A DNA stretch of 5,354 nt from Candidatus Thorarchaeota archaeon MP8T_1 (GTDB taxonomy: Archaea > Asgardarchaeota > Thorarchaeia > Thorarchaeales > Thorarchaeaceae), in assembly GCA_002825465.1 (NCBI GenBank), contig PJER01000140.1, positions 1-5,354 of the forward strand, given 5' to 3'. Position 1 is the stretch's first letter, and each line of letters opens with the position of its first letter. The position numbers and the translations under genes are program-made. The notes below the pieces were generated by a model. It searched no databases and had not been told where the DNA came from. It saw only the letters and a list, made by a program, of their open reading frames with translations. Shown here piece by piece: positions 2 through 5,327 of the stretch.

Positions 2-469
2 GAAGGTATTGGTCCCGGAGGGATTAGTGCTCTATCATTGATATATAATGACAACAAGTTCGTGCTAATCTCGGTTGATGGGAACAATATGGAGTCAGGT
101 TTTCGTGAGAGGATAATTAGCGCACTGAAGGCACAAGGTTACGATGAAGCAGAAGTGGTCACAACAGATACGCATGTCGTCAACGCAATTTCACTTTCAA
201 GTAAGGGATACCCTCCTGTTGGCAGAATTAAACCAGATGAAACGCTAGACCATATTCTTGTGGCATCGATGAAGGCTAGAGAAAAAGCTAAAAGCGCAGA
301 AGTCGGTTTAGGCTTCGGATTAGTTAGGGGAATAAGAACTCTAGGAGAGAAAGGTTTCGATATTCTCACGCAGGATATTACTGAGGCTGCAGGAATTGCG
401 AAACGTGTGGGCATTCGCATTGGCGTTGGGTCAGTGCTTGTCGCAATCTTACTTGCGTTTCTTCTTTAG
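2..469 (+). CDS. DUF2070 family archaeal membrane protein, C-terminal part (5' truncated by window edge)
   Basis: The reading frame is open to the left edge, so the 155 residues seen are only the C-terminus; the TTG at 38 lies inside the conserved region and is not a real start. Seen, counting from the first whole codon: a GIGPGGI motif at residues 2-8, DGNNM at 26-30, TTDTHVVN at 54-61 and GYPPVG at 69-74, then a charged Ala/Lys-rich helix and a hydrophobic segment at about 136-155 that looks like one membrane helix ending at the C-terminus. This motif order is what I recall for the C-terminal soluble region of DUF2070 (PF09843), archaeal proteins of several hundred residues with an N-terminal multi-helix membrane part. 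The conserved Asp, Asn and His suggest metal or phosphate chemistry, but no activity is known to me. The end of the gene is T-rich (457-467), which could aid termination. Confident on family, ignorant of function. Confidence 0.8.
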   Translation, partial: EGIGPGGISALSLIYNDNKFVLISVDGNNMESGFRERIISALKAQGYDEAEVVTTDTHVVNAISLSSKGYPPVGRIKPDETLDHILVASMKAREKAKSAEVGLGFGLVRGIRTLGEKGFDILTQDITEAAGIAKRVGIRIGVGSVLVAILLAFLL

Positions 470-531: not shown

Positions 532-538
532 GGGTGAT
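532..538 (+). promoter_or_regulatory. ribosome binding site that decides the ubiX start
   Basis: GGGTGAT contains GGTGAT, which pairs with the 3' end of archaeal 16S rRNA. It ends 4 bases before the TTG at 543. The in-frame GTG (534) and ATG (537) lie inside this site and have no ribosome site of their own, which favours TTG as the start. Confidence 0.5.
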
Positions 539-542
539 GTCT

Positions 543-1109
543 TTGAACAAGAAACGTGTCTTCGTTGGGATTACAGGAGCCAGTGGAGCAATATACGGCG
601 TCAGATTTGTCAGAGCCTTAAAATCAGAAGGTCATGAAGTACACCTCGTGGTAAGCAAATGGGGAGCTGAAACGTTAAAGTACGAACTTGGGATTGATGT
701 CGATTTATTGTCGTCTGAAGTAGATAAGATCTACAACGAAGATGAGTTAGCAGCGGGACCTGCCAGCGGAAGCTATCCTCTTGACGCAGTTGTAATAATC
801 CCGTGTTCTATGAAAACACTTGCAGGCATCGCTCACGGATATGCCGACAATCTCATTGCCCGTGCAGCTGATTGTGCGCTGAAAGAACGTCGAAAACTGA
901 TTCTTGTTCCTAGAGAAACCCCACTAAATCTAGTTCACATCAGAAATATGGCGTCAGTAACGGAAGCTGGAGCTATCTTGATTCCCGCTAGCCCCGCTTT
1001 TTGGCACAGACCAAAGAGTATTGAAGAACTCGTTGATTCAGTGGTTGATAGAGTACTAGCTCACCTGACCTCGCGCAGAGATACTGCTGCGACATGGACA
1101 GGAGAATAG
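543..1109 (+). CDS. ubiX: UbiX-type flavin prenyltransferase
   Basis: UbiX joins a dimethylallyl group to FMN, giving prenylated FMN, the cofactor of UbiD-family decarboxylases. In many archaea such a decarboxylase (anhydromevalonate phosphate decarboxylase) serves the modified mevalonate route to membrane lipids. From the TTG start the protein has 188 residues, usual for the family. Seen: the flavin-binding GASGA near the N-terminus (12-16), the PCSMKTLAG loop (87-95), Arg107, the KERR motif (114-117), RET (124-126), and a PAFWHRP segment (152-158) followed by Arg170. These match in spacing the Pseudomonas UbiX phosphate-site residues Lys129, Glu140, Tyr169 and Arg185, except that Trp154 stands where Tyr169 is expected. 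Starts at GTG 534 or ATG 537 would add two or three residues. TTG is preferred for its ribosome site and because MNKKRVFVGITGASG is a typical UbiX beginning. No signal peptide, so cytoplasmic. No ubiD lies in the window. The last dozen residues are a poorly conserved tail. Confidence 0.93.
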   Translation: MNKKRVFVGITGASGAIYGVRFVRALKSEGHEVHLVVSKWGAETLKYELGIDVDLLSSEVDKIYNEDELAAGPASGSYPLDAVVIIPCSMKTLAGIAHGYADNLIARAADCALKERRKLILVPRETPLNLVHIRNMASVTEAGAILIPASPAFWHRPKSIEELVDSVVDRVLAHLTSRRDTAATWTGE

Positions 1110-1118
1110 GCTATCCAA

Positions 1119-2966
1119 TCAACCCCAGTGCAGTGGAACTCCACAGTGTTCACAGATTATTGTTTCACCAGGTAGTGCTCGCTTGAGAAGCCCAGCTCCA
1201 CATTGTGGACAGGCTATCTTCTTTGGTGCTGTATCTTCTGTCTGTGTTTGAATTCTCAAGAGGACTTCACGTAGATTCTCTCGCATTTCTGCTAACATAA
1301 GTTCCAATTTAGTTTCATTACTGCTTGCTACTGTGATTCTGATGATGAGATTCTCCTTTGAAACAGAACCAACTACAACGAACTCATCACCTGCTAGAGC
1401 CTTCCCGTAATACCATGCTTCAAGACCAGCTTTAGGATCCGTTCGCTCATCAACAAAGAGAACACTATGTTGTTCGATGACATTCTTTACAATTTCCAGC
1501 ATTTCCGCAGGATCAGCGTTTGAATCCATTTGGTATTCGCAGGCATGTTTTGTTTGAAGAGTTGAATCCATTAAGACCTGTAGGTCTGAGAGAGTCTTTG
1601 TTTGCAGAAATGCATCGCGTGCAGAAGGAGCATGCGATAGTGGAATAGATACAACAGACTCACCGTGTTTACTGCAGGAAAAGTGTACGTCTGCACTTCC
1701 TGCGAGTTCTTTTATCTCTATCAAATCTATTGGATTATGGCATTTATGACATTCATAGAGCTGCATGTAGGTGCGAGAGAGTGTATCGAGATGCGCCGCT
1801 TTAGATAGATATCGTTCACTCCCATGTCCATTGCGACATTCAACTTTTAATTCAACAATGTCATCTTTGTCTTTAGAATCCCGAATGATAACCGGCGCAG
1901 AGCATTTTGTGCACCTAAGACTCTCTTCAATTGTGGACTCACGGTCGATATCGGGCTCCCTCATTTCAAGATGTTTATAGATATCTGGTTTAATCTCCTT
2001 ACGCATTTTTCCATGTAGTGGACAGACAAGCTCGAGTTCGACGTTTGTTCCATCAATTTTCTTTCCGACTAATTCAGTAATAAGGTCACAATCGTTGCAC
2101 TTCATGATTCCATCCACAAGTACCTCAATTGCCTCTTCGTCAAGATCGGTAGGTTGGCTCATCTCAATGGAGTGACCGTTTGGACACGTACATTTCAGTT
2201 TATACTTGTCTTTATCCAAGTCAATATTTCGTATCGATAACTTGTTAGCACATTGAGTACAATTAAGCATTGACCGCACAATAGAACCTTCAGATAGTGC
2301 ATCAGCAATCTTCTCGATCATCCATGCGTGCTTTGCTGGCATTTCTTTCTTCGTTTTTCCATGTGCAGGACAAGAAAGCTCTATGCGAGCTTTGTCACCC
2401 TTGGTTGTAACATCAAGAACTTGGCAGGGTAAACCACATTGCTCACAGTGAATGAGCCGTTTGAAGACGGTCTTGAGTATAGAAGGATCAGCCTCCGTGG
2501 GAGCATACCGAATTTCCTTGTGCCCATTTGGACAACGATATTTGAATTCCATTATTCCCTTCTTCTCATCAACCGATTGTGCTGAGAAGATTTGCCCACA
2601 ACGCGAACATGTGAGTGAATCGAGAATTGATTTTGCACTATTAATTGTTCCTTGAATTCCTGCTACGGCACTGTGATAGAATGCAGGATTCTTTTTCTTC
2701 AGTGGCCCATGAATGGGACATAGGAATACATACTCTACATCATGTCTTCCAAGATCTGTGTTAAGTAGAGACATTATGGAGCCACATTCGAGGCATGTGA
2801 ATAAACCCTTGTAAATTTCAGGAGCCATGCTATCTGCTTGGTGTCGCCCAACGTCTCGTTTACCTTTATGACCGTTCAAACATTGACAATAGAGCCGCAC
2901 CGTGCTGCCTCGCATCTCGCTTCCGAGAATATAGAAGGGTTCCTTACATTTCTTGCAAACGAACAC
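1119..2966 (-). CDS. eight-module zinc-ribbon repeat protein, shorter paralog (615 aa)
   Basis: I do not recognise a named family. Seen: eight zinc-ribbon modules starting at Cys4, 58, 120, 174, 236, 290, 352 and 406, alternating type A (C-x2-C-x21-C-x3-H) and type B (C-x2-C-x21-C-x2-H), all with ligands intact. The spacing is 54 and 62 residues in turn, a 116-residue repeat. After about residue 453 comes an alpha/beta region (helix 486-500, strands near 501-548, long helix 552-576) and a final ribbon with Cys586, 589, 605 and 608. There is no signal peptide or membrane segment, so it is probably cytoplasmic, which suits reduced zinc-binding cysteines. GTG at 2966 is preferred over TTG at 2975: it aligns with the start of the upstream paralog (xFxCKKCxEPxYI), whereas TTG would sit two bases from the AGGT site. 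It is transcribed in the same direction as that paralog, 84 bases after its stop, so the two may share a transcript. Binding of protein, nucleic acid or metal is possible; function unknown. Confidence 0.88.
   Translation of the reverse strand: MFVCKKCKEPFYILGSEMRGSTVRLYCQCLNGHKGKRDVGRHQADSMAPEIYKGLFTCLECGSIMSLLNTDLGRHDVEYVFLCPIHGPLKKKNPAFYHSAVAGIQGTINSAKSILDSLTCSRCGQIFSAQSVDEKKGIMEFKYRCPNGHKEIRYAPTEADPSILKTVFKRLIHCEQCGLPCQVLDVTTKGDKARIELSCPAHGKTKKEMPAKHAWMIEKIADALSEGSIVRSMLNCTQCANKLSIRNIDLDKDKYKLKCTCPNGHSIEMSQPTDLDEEAIEVLVDGIMKCNDCDLITELVGKKIDGTNVELELVCPLHGKMRKEIKPDIYKHLEMREPDIDRESTIEESLRCTKCSAPVIIRDSKDKDDIVELKVECRNGHGSERYLSKAAHLDTLSRTYMQLYECHKCHNPIDLIEIKELAGSADVHFSCSKHGESVVSIPLSHAPSARDAFLQTKTLSDLQVLMDSTLQTKHACEYQMDSNADPAEMLEIVKNVIEQHSVLFVDERTDPKAGLEAWYYGKALAGDEFVVVGSVSKENLIIRITVASSNETKLELMLAEMRENLREVLLRIQTQTEDTAPKKIACPQCGAGLLKRALPGETIICEHCGVPLHWG
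1608..2957 (-). repeat. four-unit zinc-ribbon repeat array within the 615-aa protein
   Basis: Protein-level tandem repeat with a 116-residue (348-bp) period and no insertion or deletion in ligand spacing. Units read, in order of translation, 2610-2957, 2262-2609, 1914-2261 and 1608-1913 (the last shortened). Each unit is a type A ribbon ending CLNGH, CPNGH or CRNGH, a helix of about 20 residues, a type B ribbon ending C-x-x-H-G, and a longer helical connector often ending in Ser-Leu or Met-Leu before the next Cys. The units are diverged in sequence, so this is an old repeat and not a recent DNA expansion. Confidence 0.9.
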
Positions 2967-2977
2967 ATCTATCAACT

Positions 2978-2982
2978 ACCTT
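2978..2982 (-). promoter_or_regulatory. ribosome binding site for the 615-aa zinc-ribbon gene
   Basis: AAGGT on the minus strand lies 11 bases before the GTG at 2966 and only 2 bases before the alternative TTG at 2975. The spacing supports GTG. The match to the archaeal anti-Shine-Dalgarno sequence is short, so this is moderate evidence. Confidence 0.4.
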
Positions 2983-3023
2983 GGCGCAGCAAGCATCCAA
3001 GCCCATAGATTCCTAGAGCTTCC

Positions 3024-3032
3024 TAATATGTA
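3024..3032 (-). promoter_or_regulatory. candidate TATA box in the gap between the two zinc-ribbon genes
   Basis: The minus strand reads TACATATTA about 60 bases upstream of the GTG at 2966. Transcription would start near 3003, leaving a leader of about 35 bases. If real, the shorter gene can be transcribed independently of the upstream paralog. The rest of the 84-bp gap shows no hairpin or other signal I can support. Confidence 0.25.
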
Positions 3033-3050
3033 CTCCGCATACTAAGAAAT

Positions 3051-5327
3051 TCATTGAAGGTATAGTGCAATGGTAAGTGAATGAGTGCAATACTTGCACC
3101 GAATTGGTTGGCGTTTTCCCAATTCTTCGACTTGCTCTGTTTCAAGTGGTGCTCCGCATCGAAGACATACCCAAGAGTCCATTGTGTCTGCTAGCTCATC
3201 AATAGTCGTAGGCAACATTGATACATCCTCACCGAGAGCTTCTACTTTGATGACAGAATGGCGACCATTTTCTGGTCCAGTAATCATGAGGACCACAGCA
3301 ATTTTCCGCTTTGTGTATTTGCCTTCAGCATAGCCGCGAATGGTTCCAATAAACTCACCGGCAATCACATGTTCATCCGTATCAACAACATGGAAGTTCT
3401 TTGTGGGCAATATCTTCTCAGCTTTGGTGAATAGAACCTTTGCATTCCAATCAAGACTCTGCTCTTGCTGAGTCCTTTCAAGACTTGAAAGGACAAGGTT
3501 GAATTCTGCAGATGTCTTCTTGGAAGGCATCAGCAAATCACAGACCGAACGGATTAGATAAGGCTCTACGCTCATTGTGTGTAACTGGTCAAGAAAATCA
3601 ATGTAGGAAACAGTAGCAACCACTTTTCCCTGAACACAATCCTTTGTTGGATAGAATGTGAACTGGGGACTTCTGAATCCACCTACTTCGATTCTGGAAA
3701 TTGTCTTCACATTCTCTCCGGCTAGTTCCATACAATCGGCAGGGTATGCAACAATACTTACTGTCACATTTGTGATGACATAGCCACTATTGTTTACCAC
3801 CTTGACCTTGTAATCGAATTTACCACCTACAATCTCACATCCACGCATTGCCCTAACTCCACCATCCGTAGAATCAATCGACTCACTTTCTGCTTCGAGA
3901 GATCCAGATGGTTCAGGCTCACTCACTTCAATCGGAGGTTTGGCCTTATCTGCCTGTATTTCTGCATATGCACTCTGCATTGCCTTTGCATGGTCAGGGG
4001 GAATATCGAACACATACTTACCATGAATTGGACACAATTGCACTACTCTATCTTCACGGCCGCCTTGCTCAACATATACTAAATCTAGCGGCTCATAACA
4101 CTCTGGACACTGGAAGAATCGCTTGTAGAGATCAACAAGTGTTTCTGATTCTAATTCGGGTTTGAATAGTCTCTTACTTCTATGACCATTCCTACACTCT
4201 ACATCAAACTCTACAAGACCTCGGCGTTCCTCAACATCTCTGAGTGTAAGTGGCATACTGCATTTCTCACAACTAAGACTTCTTACTATAGATGGAAGTC
4301 GATCGATAGTGTACTCATGATCCGATATAATATCGAAGATAGCAGGCGTTGTTTCTCGTTGCATCACACCATGAATTGGACAAACAATCTGGAATGACAC
4401 CTTCTTTGCACTTTTCCTTTTGCCAAGAATATGAGTCAAGTGCCCACATTCATCACATGTGAGTATGGCTGTCGTTATCCGATTGGTAACAGCATCATTC
4501 CACGTAAGTGGCAAAACCCTGTCTGTGGCGATTTTACTGCCAGGGCAGACACACTTCAGCTTGTAGCCAGATCTATCATCCTCTATGCTTCTAATTGCTA
4601 AAGGCTGTCTACACTCATGAGCAGTGAGAGTAGCACGAAGAACAGCATCCTCAGGTATTTCTGATATTGCTTCTTTTAGAGTATCTAAAAACGAGTCAGG
4701 AATATCCTTCTTTGCAACACCATGAACTGGGCATGCAGCGTATACACGTGCCAAGCTACCCCGTTGTTCAACATTGGCAATATGCCCCGGAAGTCCGCAT
4801 TTATCACAATGGATTACTCGCTGGAGAATTCTTTTGAGAAGAGATAGCTCCATGTCACTAGGGAGATATCTGCTAACCCTGTGACCATTTGCACATCTCG
4901 CATCAATCTCAATGATTCCTTTGCGTTGTTCGACCTCACTTACAGCAAATACAAGACCACACTGTGAGCATCTGAAAGAATCAATGATGGCTCTTGGACC
5001 GTCAATTTCTGCAGCGGCAAGTTGGATAGTCGAAAGAAACTCTCGAGGAAATTCACGTTTCTCAATACCGTGACGTGGACAAAGAAACATACCCTCAGTC
5101 TTTGATCCTTGAATAAGAGTATCAACAAGTGTCATGTCCGAACCGCATTCTATGCAAACGAACATTTTTTTGAAAACCTCTACGCCAACATCCGTTATCT
5201 GATGCTCAGCCAAACGCCTTGCACTTTTGTGACCGTGCAAACATTGGGTTTCAAGTGTCAGAATGTGGTCTTTTATCTCAGCGTTCCGGATATAGAGAGG
5301 TTCTTGGCATTTTTTGCATGAGAACAC
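3051..5327 (-). CDS. eight-module zinc-ribbon repeat protein with beta-sandwich C-terminus, longer paralog (758 aa)
   Basis: No named family recognised for the whole protein. Residues 4-437 hold eight zinc-ribbon modules (first-ligand positions 4, 58, 120, 174, 236, 291, 353, 407) of the same alternating types as the downstream paralog. The fifth module is degenerate: Ala236 replaces the first Cys, Lys265 the His, and one residue is added after it. Residues 458-490 are an acidic Ser/Pro/Glu linker, probably disordered. Residues about 497-600 look like a beta-sandwich (NNSGYVITNVTV, SRIEVGGF, DCVQGKV, IRSVCDLL), a domain type I have seen in other archaeal proteins. Residues about 605-718 form an alpha/beta domain with AEGKYTKRK and LPTTIDELAD. 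The end is a ribbon with Cys721, 724, 744 and 747. No signal peptide or membrane helix, so cytoplasmic. GTG at 5327 follows AGGTG by 7 bases and sets the first ribbon at residue 4. The promoter lies beyond the window. Its role is unknown; the layout suggests a scaffold or adaptor. Confidence 0.9.
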   Translation of the reverse strand: MFSCKKCQEPLYIRNAEIKDHILTLETQCLHGHKSARRLAEHQITDVGVEVFKKMFVCIECGSDMTLVDTLIQGSKTEGMFLCPRHGIEKREFPREFLSTIQLAAAEIDGPRAIIDSFRCSQCGLVFAVSEVEQRKGIIEIDARCANGHRVSRYLPSDMELSLLKRILQRVIHCDKCGLPGHIANVEQRGSLARVYAACPVHGVAKKDIPDSFLDTLKEAISEIPEDAVLRATLTAHECRQPLAIRSIEDDRSGYKLKCVCPGSKIATDRVLPLTWNDAVTNRITTAILTCDECGHLTHILGKRKSAKKVSFQIVCPIHGVMQRETTPAIFDIISDHEYTIDRLPSIVRSLSCEKCSMPLTLRDVEERRGLVEFDVECRNGHRSKRLFKPELESETLVDLYKRFFQCPECYEPLDLVYVEQGGREDRVVQLCPIHGKYVFDIPPDHAKAMQSAYAEIQADKAKPPIEVSEPEPSGSLEAESESIDSTDGGVRAMRGCEIVGGKFDYKVKVVNNSGYVITNVTVSIVAYPADCMELAGENVKTISRIEVGGFRSPQFTFYPTKDCVQGKVVATVSYIDFLDQLHTMSVEPYLIRSVCDLLMPSKKTSAEFNLVLSSLERTQQEQSLDWNAKVLFTKAEKILPTKNFHVVDTDEHVIAGEFIGTIRGYAEGKYTKRKIAVVLMITGPENGRHSVIKVEALGEDVSMLPTTIDELADTMDSWVCLRCGAPLETEQVEELGKRQPIRCKYCTHSLTIALYLQ
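3528..3839 (-). other. predicted beta-sandwich domain in the 758-aa protein
   Basis: Residues 497-600 alternate short hydrophobic strands with Asn/Gly turns: FDYKVKVVNNSG, ITNVTVSIVAYP, a GGF turn, FTFYP, GKVVATVSYID and IRSVCDLL. Pattern and length of about 100 residues fit an immunoglobulin-like or CARDB-like sandwich, as used for protein-protein contact. The paralog downstream lacks this domain and the acidic linker before it. The fold is inferred from strand pattern alone. Confidence 0.55.
3957..5318 (-). repeat. four-unit zinc-ribbon repeat array within the 758-aa protein
   Basis: Protein-level tandem repeat, units in order of translation at 4971-5318, 4623-4970, 4272-4622 and 3957-4271. 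The first two are exactly 116 residues; the third is 117 because its type A ribbon has decayed and gained a residue; the fourth is shortened. In every module, including the decayed one, 21 residues separate the second and third ligand positions. Units match their counterparts in the 615-residue paralog by position: GLP in unit 2 type B, YKLKC-x-CP in unit 3 type A, CRNGH in unit 4 type A. Confidence 0.9.

Follow-up and report, generated by a model that had tools for sequence, protein, structure and literature searches.

Two adjacent genes of Candidatus Thorarchaeota archaeon MP8T_1, here called A and B, encode proteins in which zinc ribbons recur at a nearly fixed spacing, and they raise the question of what holds that spacing and what such proteins are for. 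Both lie in the window that we analyzed, the 5,354-nucleotide stretch from position 1 to position 5,354 of contig PJER01000140.1, which contains four genes (the end of a DUF2070 gene, UbiX, A, and B; Table 1). Judging from structure models and by analogy, we suggest with moderate confidence that A and B are cytosolic adaptor or scaffold paralogues, in which a stiff zinc-ribbon trunk would carry an adaptin-appendage-like, peptide-recruiting ear near a membrane.

Register of the zinc-ribbon trunk

The repeat unit consists of a ribbon, a 24-residue helical linker, a second ribbon, and another helical linker, 116 residues in total, and occurs in four copies per array. The ribbon pattern C-x2-C plus C-x(2,3)-H is present in 15 of the 16 modules of A and B, odd modules closing with C-x3-H (CPNGH type) and even modules with C-x2-H-G (CPIHG type). 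The A open reading frame has 618 codons from a TTG and gives 615 amino acids when read from the GTG at codon 4; in the shorter form, the first-ligand cysteines stand at 4, 58, 120, 174, 236, 290, 352, and 406, i.e. at steps of 54, 62, 54, 62, 54, 62, and 54, exactly the positions and the absence of slip that the original prediction had claimed. The same prediction extended the first five positions to the 758-residue protein B, which holds for 4, 58, 120, and 174 and fails at 236, where B has an alanine (TLTAHEC). This fifth module also lacks its fourth ligand (CPGSK instead of CPNGH), and modules 6–8 begin at 291, 353, and 407, one residue later than in A. The distance from ligand 2 to ligand 3 is 22 in all eight modules of A and in all modules of B, measured in module 5 from its two remaining cysteines. 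The periodicity exceeds chance: in A, self-identity along the array is highest at lags of 232 and 116 residues, with 0.23 at both and 0.105 at the next lag, and B has its maxima at 233 (0.25) and 116 (0.14), followed by 0.108. Ligand loss in module 5 is common to the B family, the other modules retaining their ligands with few exceptions: counted from the four commonest letters of 73 aligned rows, S/A/T/D stands at ligand 1 in 72 rows and K/G/S/N at ligand 4 in 71. Cysteines 2 and 3 of this module are each kept in 69 of the 73 rows, along with the additional residue, and module 5 may form another kind of site or a place for docking.

The register is maintained by 110 of the 115 homologues found in the search with A, the others (P0043, P0099, P0105, P0112, and P0113) departing by one or two residues, and 654 of the 656 single first-ligand steps in this set measure 54 or 62. 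Among 86 further listed homologues, four depart (P0181, P0186, P0190, and P0194), which brings off-spacing to 9 of the 201 listed, some of which are fragments or begin within the array; the B norm of 117 from module 4 to module 6, and 116 across a lost CxxC, were scored as register kept. For indel counts, 74 A and 72 B homologues were aligned with the window proteins, the remainder of the 201, mainly fragments and close copies, having been dropped by eye. Over 32,637 aligned residues, the A array accumulates 8 indel events (0.25 per 1000), and the B array 7 over 32,243 (0.22 per 1000), compared with 14 in the 2,004 residues of the B hinge (7.0 per 1000). Among orthologues, the array behaves as a compact domain, and at these rates the freely varying linker lengths that the original prediction had set against itself are not seen. 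Linkers also keep their length despite divergence, as had been proposed: the eight units of the window, compared in 28 pairs, share a mean identity of 24.5% and show 7 indel events in total (0.22 per 100 aligned residues), all of which trace to a single extra residue in B unit 3, i.e. one indel across eight units. In an appendage control, pairs below 30% identity reach 2.54 events per 100 aligned residues (21 pairs), about 12-fold more, and pairs at 30–40% identity reach 0.77 (53 pairs). The aligner might favor the register, which the cysteine landmarks fix independently. Recent duplication or gene conversion as the source of the strict register was ruled out by the identity of 16–33% between units within an array of the window.

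The ancestry of the unit can be followed beyond the two genes. A tree of 34 rows separates A and B into two clades with full support, and each unit of A is closest to the unit of the same number in B (means of 38, 35, 31, and 30% identity), whereas units within one array are on average 16–27% identical; the four-unit array therefore predates the A/B split, the two-ribbon unit having been quadruplicated before it. A profile of the unit matches 75 of the 227 genomes of the phylum, with at most 20 candidates scored per genome, and the full array, by eye, is missing from 40 of these 75. In the 34 of those 40 that were searched again, 63 of the 82 matches listed fall within open frames 140–250 amino acids long; in other Asgard genomes, the unit mostly stands alone. 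An alignment of 12 stand-alone proteins used as query returned 88 proteins, of which 65 were parsed by pattern. Their first-ligand step is 54 in 43 cases, 55 in 17, 62 in 4, and 56 in 1, and the 54 step is thus not confined to the array. The linker (ligand 3 to the next ligand 1) is 29 in 60 of the 65 and 30 in 5; one linker of 31, in L087, comes from a separate set of genome loci. In ribbon 1, ligands 2 and 3 are 22, 23, or 29 residues apart, and in ribbon 2 their distance is 20 or 22. Because the ribbon 1 hairpin varies while the linker stays at 29–30, the linker is the most constrained length in the 65 of 88 proteins parsed. Of the 23 unparsed matches, three (P0245, P0247, and P0248) have a 54 step at a later position, and another 17 (P0273–P0289; 12–41% query coverage) resemble double zinc ribbons. 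P0263 bears a bacterial label, all other organism-labelled matches being Asgard. One protein of 444 amino acids (L088:457–1788, reverse strand), from a genome without the full array, combines a single two-ribbon unit with an immunoglobulin-like (Ig) domain, a platform, and a terminal zinc ribbon and is a minimal version of A and B.

AlphaFold2 predictions, read as predicted local distance difference test (pLDDT), predicted template modelling score (pTM), and secondary structure, were confident for both arrays. The A model has a mean pLDDT of 90.7 and a pTM of 0.75 over 618 residues, and from the second 10-residue block of the array onward its pLDDT is 84 or more; the B model has a pLDDT of 82.3 and a pTM of 0.52, with array blocks of 80–95, and runs from the array through a hinge (residues 464–488, pLDDT below 50) to a sandwich and a beta-alpha-beta4-alpha domain. 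Both models give three strands per module and helical linkers; in A, the third strand of even modules passes straight, or nearly so, into the first of two helices, and one helix follows each odd module (two short ones after module 1). Assuming perfect placement, a pTM of 0.75 requires at least about 464 mutually placed residues and a pTM of 0.52 at least about 394, the B array being 460 residues long; because so many residues share one frame, independent 55-residue beads appear unlikely. Conserved large hydrophobic residues are no rarer in linkers (5/24 and 5/33 positions) than in ribbons (4/30 and 4/29 positions). Mutual information within unit types places ribbon 2–linker 2 in 15 of the top 60 pairs (9.3 expected) and linker–linker in 13 (7.2 expected), although at an effective depth of 13–52 per type, and with linkers the more variable, these couplings are weak. 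The idea that the array forms a single rigid body, possibly a rod or a superhelix in which helices would pack on the ribbons, is consistent with the confident models, the helical linkers, and the indel counts; independent ribbons with flexible linkers were not seen. The array is likely rigid, as modelled, and we propose that linker length is constrained because the helices pack on the ribbons. VIA-align rows cover mainly the ears and are hence silent on known relatives of the trunk fold; the top Foldseek rows of A outside the ear (7xsx_k and 6v8i_AH) were discarded as meaningless (TM-scores 0.09–0.14, root-mean-square deviation 19–27).

Several observations weigh against a stiff trunk under unusual constraint. 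AlphaFold2 can over-order repeats. Other folded parts are also poor in indels, with 12 events in 9,222 residues of the A platform (1.30 per 1000) and none in the Ig and platform of B. The L088 protein takes part in 16 of the 21 pairs that make up the control below 30% identity, and without it the control drops to 1.23 events per 100 (5 pairs, 28–30% identity) and the contrast to about 6-fold. Array units compared with stand-alone relatives show 2.03 events per 100 aligned residues. Finally, the exact period is a feature of the Thorarchaeota proteins, and the first steps of the stand-alone relatives are 54, 55, 56, or 62. The restricted period, the indels against stand-alone relatives, and the fact that the stiff trunk is known from a predicted model would all suit ribbons that are independent beads on flexible strings, their constant spacing reflecting slow evolution in one archaeal class. 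We consider this very unlikely, as units at 24.5% mean identity accumulate about 6–12 times fewer indels than the control, distant stand-alone relatives hold linker length while hairpins vary, and both pTM values argue for extended mutual placement.

The C-terminal ears and the proposed function

The original prediction was largely right on array spacing and omitted the appendage-like C termini, the hinge of B, and the broken module 5. In the models, B ends in a flexible hinge followed by an Ig-platform pair and A in a platform alone, with no disordered hinge, and these C termini, by prediction and comparison of structures, resemble the appendages of AP2 and COPI; the order that defines the appendage fold, an Ig-like sandwich followed by a platform, is found in the predicted structure. 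Profile searches of Pfam and the PDB gave no significant similarity of the ears to eukaryotic appendages: no appendage was among 18 PDB matches at E up to 10, no adaptin family was among the 25 of 46 matched families inspected for appendage-module members, and the closest hits were GAE_BBS1 in 1 of 17 such members (E 0.04) and PF02883 in L088 only (E 0.084). FxxxW is a motif of the appendage platform (PMC2262067); Phe 609 of B, in an invariant column, stands at the inferred FxxxW position, with Leu at +4. Whole A and B gave Pfam and NCBIfam matches below curated cut-offs only, for example TIGR04165 methano_modCys for B (19.7 bits, cut-off 60), and in sequence searches of the PDB no match was significant, A reaching E 0.082 at best and B having no match at E up to 1. 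At E 0.003 and 17.5 bits (cut-off 132), the platform domain of A weakly matches NF045535 Sel_Asgard, a putative selenocysteine system protein.

An ear-plus-zinc-ribbon module also follows a hydrophobic helix in six large Asgard proteins (L047:3651–6443, reverse strand; L112:955–3705; L113:576–3341, reverse strand; L114:392–4342; L115:462–3875; and L051:1–2292), which are possibly receptors with a built-in ear; two of the six were run against Pfam, one matching SBP_bac_5 and one NosD. The Thorarchaeota contig G003:C156 (L048) carries a local expansion of four adjacent genes (744–6288), each encoding an N-terminal hydrophobic segment and an ear, and two further proteins (L049:1387–3684 and L116:385–2661) have two tandem appendage-plus-ribbon modules, with no hydrophobic segment found.

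The adaptor reading is preferred because of the fold of the ear and its membrane-linked relatives. A and B, paralogous proteins of Thorarchaeota that are probably co-transcribed, would be cytosolic, each with a trunk of four copies of the Asgard two-ribbon unit, which helices packed on the ribbons may turn into one stiff elongated body, as models and indel counts suggest. The trunk would bear an ear, which in B combines Ig and platform behind a flexible hinge and in A is a platform only. By analogy with the ears of adaptins and COPI, this ear would most likely capture short peptide motifs in partner proteins, and the trunk would space binding faces near a membrane, perhaps together with the small membrane protein whose gene lies immediately upstream in most relatives. 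We infer zinc binding, peptide recruitment by the ears, the membrane role, and A–B pairing.

Tandem zinc ribbons of topoisomerases can bind nucleic acid, and the array could be a nucleic-acid binding rod to which the ear is incidental. Some homologues are indeed named by their sources after Elf1, RpoP, or topoisomerase ribbons, and in Pfam A scores best, if weakly, with Zn_ribbon_recom (E 9.9e-5; 23.1 bits, cut-off 25.3); however, these names look automatic and motif-level, ear modules in relatives often lie behind a hydrophobic helix, and the reading is less likely because the net charge of the array is near zero (0 and -2 in the window proteins, with unit means of -5.8 to +4.7 over orthologues), which leaves it, in our estimate, distinctly unlikely. 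Also unlikely, and a sub-case of the adaptor reading, is a multivalent reader of ubiquitin or a small modifier in the Asgard network of ubiquitin and the endosomal sorting complex required for transport (ESCRT), in which ribbons would bind chains and the ear would recruit sorting factors. Asgard ESCRT-type proteins with zinc ribbons and others with appendage regions have been described, and one yeast Vps36 zinc finger binds ubiquitinated cargo (PMC10936438). Sub-threshold matches to Vps36-NZF-N (best E 0.038) and zf_UBZ (best E 0.14; in the window on the C-terminal ribbon) each occur in 2 of the 17 appendage-module members, but at E up to 1 neither A nor B matches a ubiquitin-binding finger, and the window has no ESCRT gene.

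Returning to the adaptor reading, a bolder and highly doubtful version of it sees in A and B the pair of large subunits of an adaptor-like or coat-like complex of archaea. A superhelix of zinc ribbons would there take the place of the HEAT trunk of adaptins, the equal-period trunks would pair in parallel, and the ears, one hinged and one rigid, would gather membrane receptors with the same kind of ear in their tails. Charge complementarity (unit means of -5.8 for A3 and +4.6 for B3) was dropped as a sign of pairing, because 7 of the 9 members of the deep A clade, to which a genome without B belongs, likewise have an acidic A3.

The locus and its distribution

Organism-labelled A homologues come mostly from Candidatus Thorarchaeota, with a few from Promethearchaeota, Sifarchaeia, or Odinarchaeota, and all 20 genome loci found carry Thorarchaeota titles. 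Across these 20 loci, some of which end at contig ends, the commonest order is an HD_assoc_2 protein (cluster 5; Pfam run on one member; 15 loci), a small membrane protein (cluster 7; 14 loci, directly preceding B or A), B, and A, then convergent UbiX and DUF2070 (18 loci each). Read by eye, full-length B lies upstream of A in 13 loci, 3 of them with one reverse gene between. In L011, L013, and L015, A immediately follows the membrane protein and B is missing at that site; for L013, a single-chromosome record, a search of the genome found no full-length B either. Genome G001 has A without full-length B, and G191 carries the two genes at distant sites. One member of the membrane-protein cluster (L008:2396–2884) has two or more hydrophobic segments, a charged tail, and no Pfam match at E 0.05. 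PADLOC gave no match at E 0.01.

Table 1. Features of the window; residue numbers of the A ribbons follow the 618-codon open reading frame
Feature	Position	Strand	Details
DUF2070 membrane protein, end of gene	2–469	+	PF09843, E 2.7e-32
UbiX-type flavin prenyltransferase	534–1109	+	TIGR00421, E 1.4e-67
Protein A	1119–2975	-	Eight-ribbon array, platform-like domain, C-terminal zinc ribbon
A C-terminal zinc ribbon	1143–1211	-	C589, C592, C608, C611
A platform-like domain (appendage C-lobe)	1233–1607	-	Residues 457–581
A ribbon 8	1665–1751	-	C409, C412, C434, H437
A ribbon 7	1824–1913	-	C355, C358, C380, H384; invariant, 75 rows
A ribbon 6	2013–2099	-	C293, C296, C318, H321
A ribbon 5	2172–2261	-	C239, C242, C264, H268; invariant, 75 rows
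A ribbon 4	2361–2447	-	C177, C180, C202, H205
A ribbon 3	2520–2609	-	C123, C126, C148, H152; invariant, 75 rows
A ribbon 2	2709–2795	-	C61, C64, C86, H89
A ribbon 1	2868–2957	-	C7, C10, C32, H36
Protein B	3051–5327	-	758 residues; eight-module array, hinge, Ig and platform appendage-like region, C-terminal zinc ribbon
B C-terminal zinc ribbon	3087–3167	-	C721, C724, C744, C747
B platform-like domain (appendage C-lobe)	3174–3527	-	Residues 601–718
B Ig-like beta-sandwich (appendage N-lobe)	3528–3863	-	Residues 489–600
B hinge	3864–3938	-	Residues 464–488; pLDDT below 50; indel-rich among orthologues
B ribbon 8	4023–4109	-	C407, C410, C432, H435
B ribbon 7	4182–4271	-	C353, C356, C378, H382
B ribbon 6	4371–4457	-	C291, C294, C316, H319
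B module 5	4533–4622	-	Ligands 1 and 4 lost; one extra residue; C239, C261 kept
B ribbon 4	4722–4808	-	C174, C177, C199, H202
B ribbon 3	4881–4970	-	C120, C123, C145, H149
B ribbon 2	5070–5156	-	C58, C61, C83, H86
B ribbon 1	5229–5318	-	C4, C7, C29, H33

Comparison with known systems

The ear itself is not new, as appendage-like domains in archaea have been published. Adaptin appendage-like regions occur in archaeal ESCRT loci, where one of them carries a zinc ribbon and another a transmembrane linker; some Asgard proteins join Vps28-C, longin, and appendage regions (Makarova et al. 2024, PMC10936438). These proteins share with A and B the Ig plus platform (TATA-binding protein fold) region, but in the passages that describe them have at most three zinc ribbons each and no 116-residue two-ribbon repeat; nor is any ESCRT locus visible around A and B. 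Alpha adaptin C-terminal and Beta2-adaptin appendage domains have also been reported in Asgards, unfused to other adaptor domains (Eme et al. 2023, PMC10307638), in passages that contain neither zinc-ribbon arrays nor these genes; passages of PMC9834061 hold nothing further on ears. An eight-ribbon trunk fused to an ear, the two-ribbon unit, and the paired genes were not found in a search of the open-access literature, which left most subscription papers and preprints outside.

Asgard appendage-like domains are known yet hard to interpret, and here one sits on a fixed-spacing repeat trunk in a conserved gene pair, giving a testable case of adaptor-like design in archaea related to eukaryotes. 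The array is also an unusual metal-ribbon repeat protein in that linker length is more conserved than hairpin length. The Asgard stand-alone proteins (source name zinc-ribbon domain-containing protein, Promethearchaeota) share its unit, but have one unit, usually followed by a low-complexity stretch and a double zinc ribbon, with an ear only in L088; this simpler relative and the stand-alone units make a pre-coat adaptor role testable with soluble proteins.

The large subunits of the adaptor protein (AP) and COPI complexes (alpha and beta2 adaptin, gamma and beta COP) offer a parallel in design. Their trunk is built of HEAT repeats, whereas that of A and B consists of predicted three-stranded ribbons with helices and conserved ligands; A and B differ further in their extra C-terminal zinc ribbon and in the lack of significant sequence similarity, and A in lacking the Ig lobe. 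The disordered hinge between trunk and ear is present in B and absent from A. Like the AP/COPI large subunits, A and B are a pair of paralogous proteins, and B in particular combines, as they do, an elongated repeat trunk, a disordered hinge, and an Ig plus platform ear.
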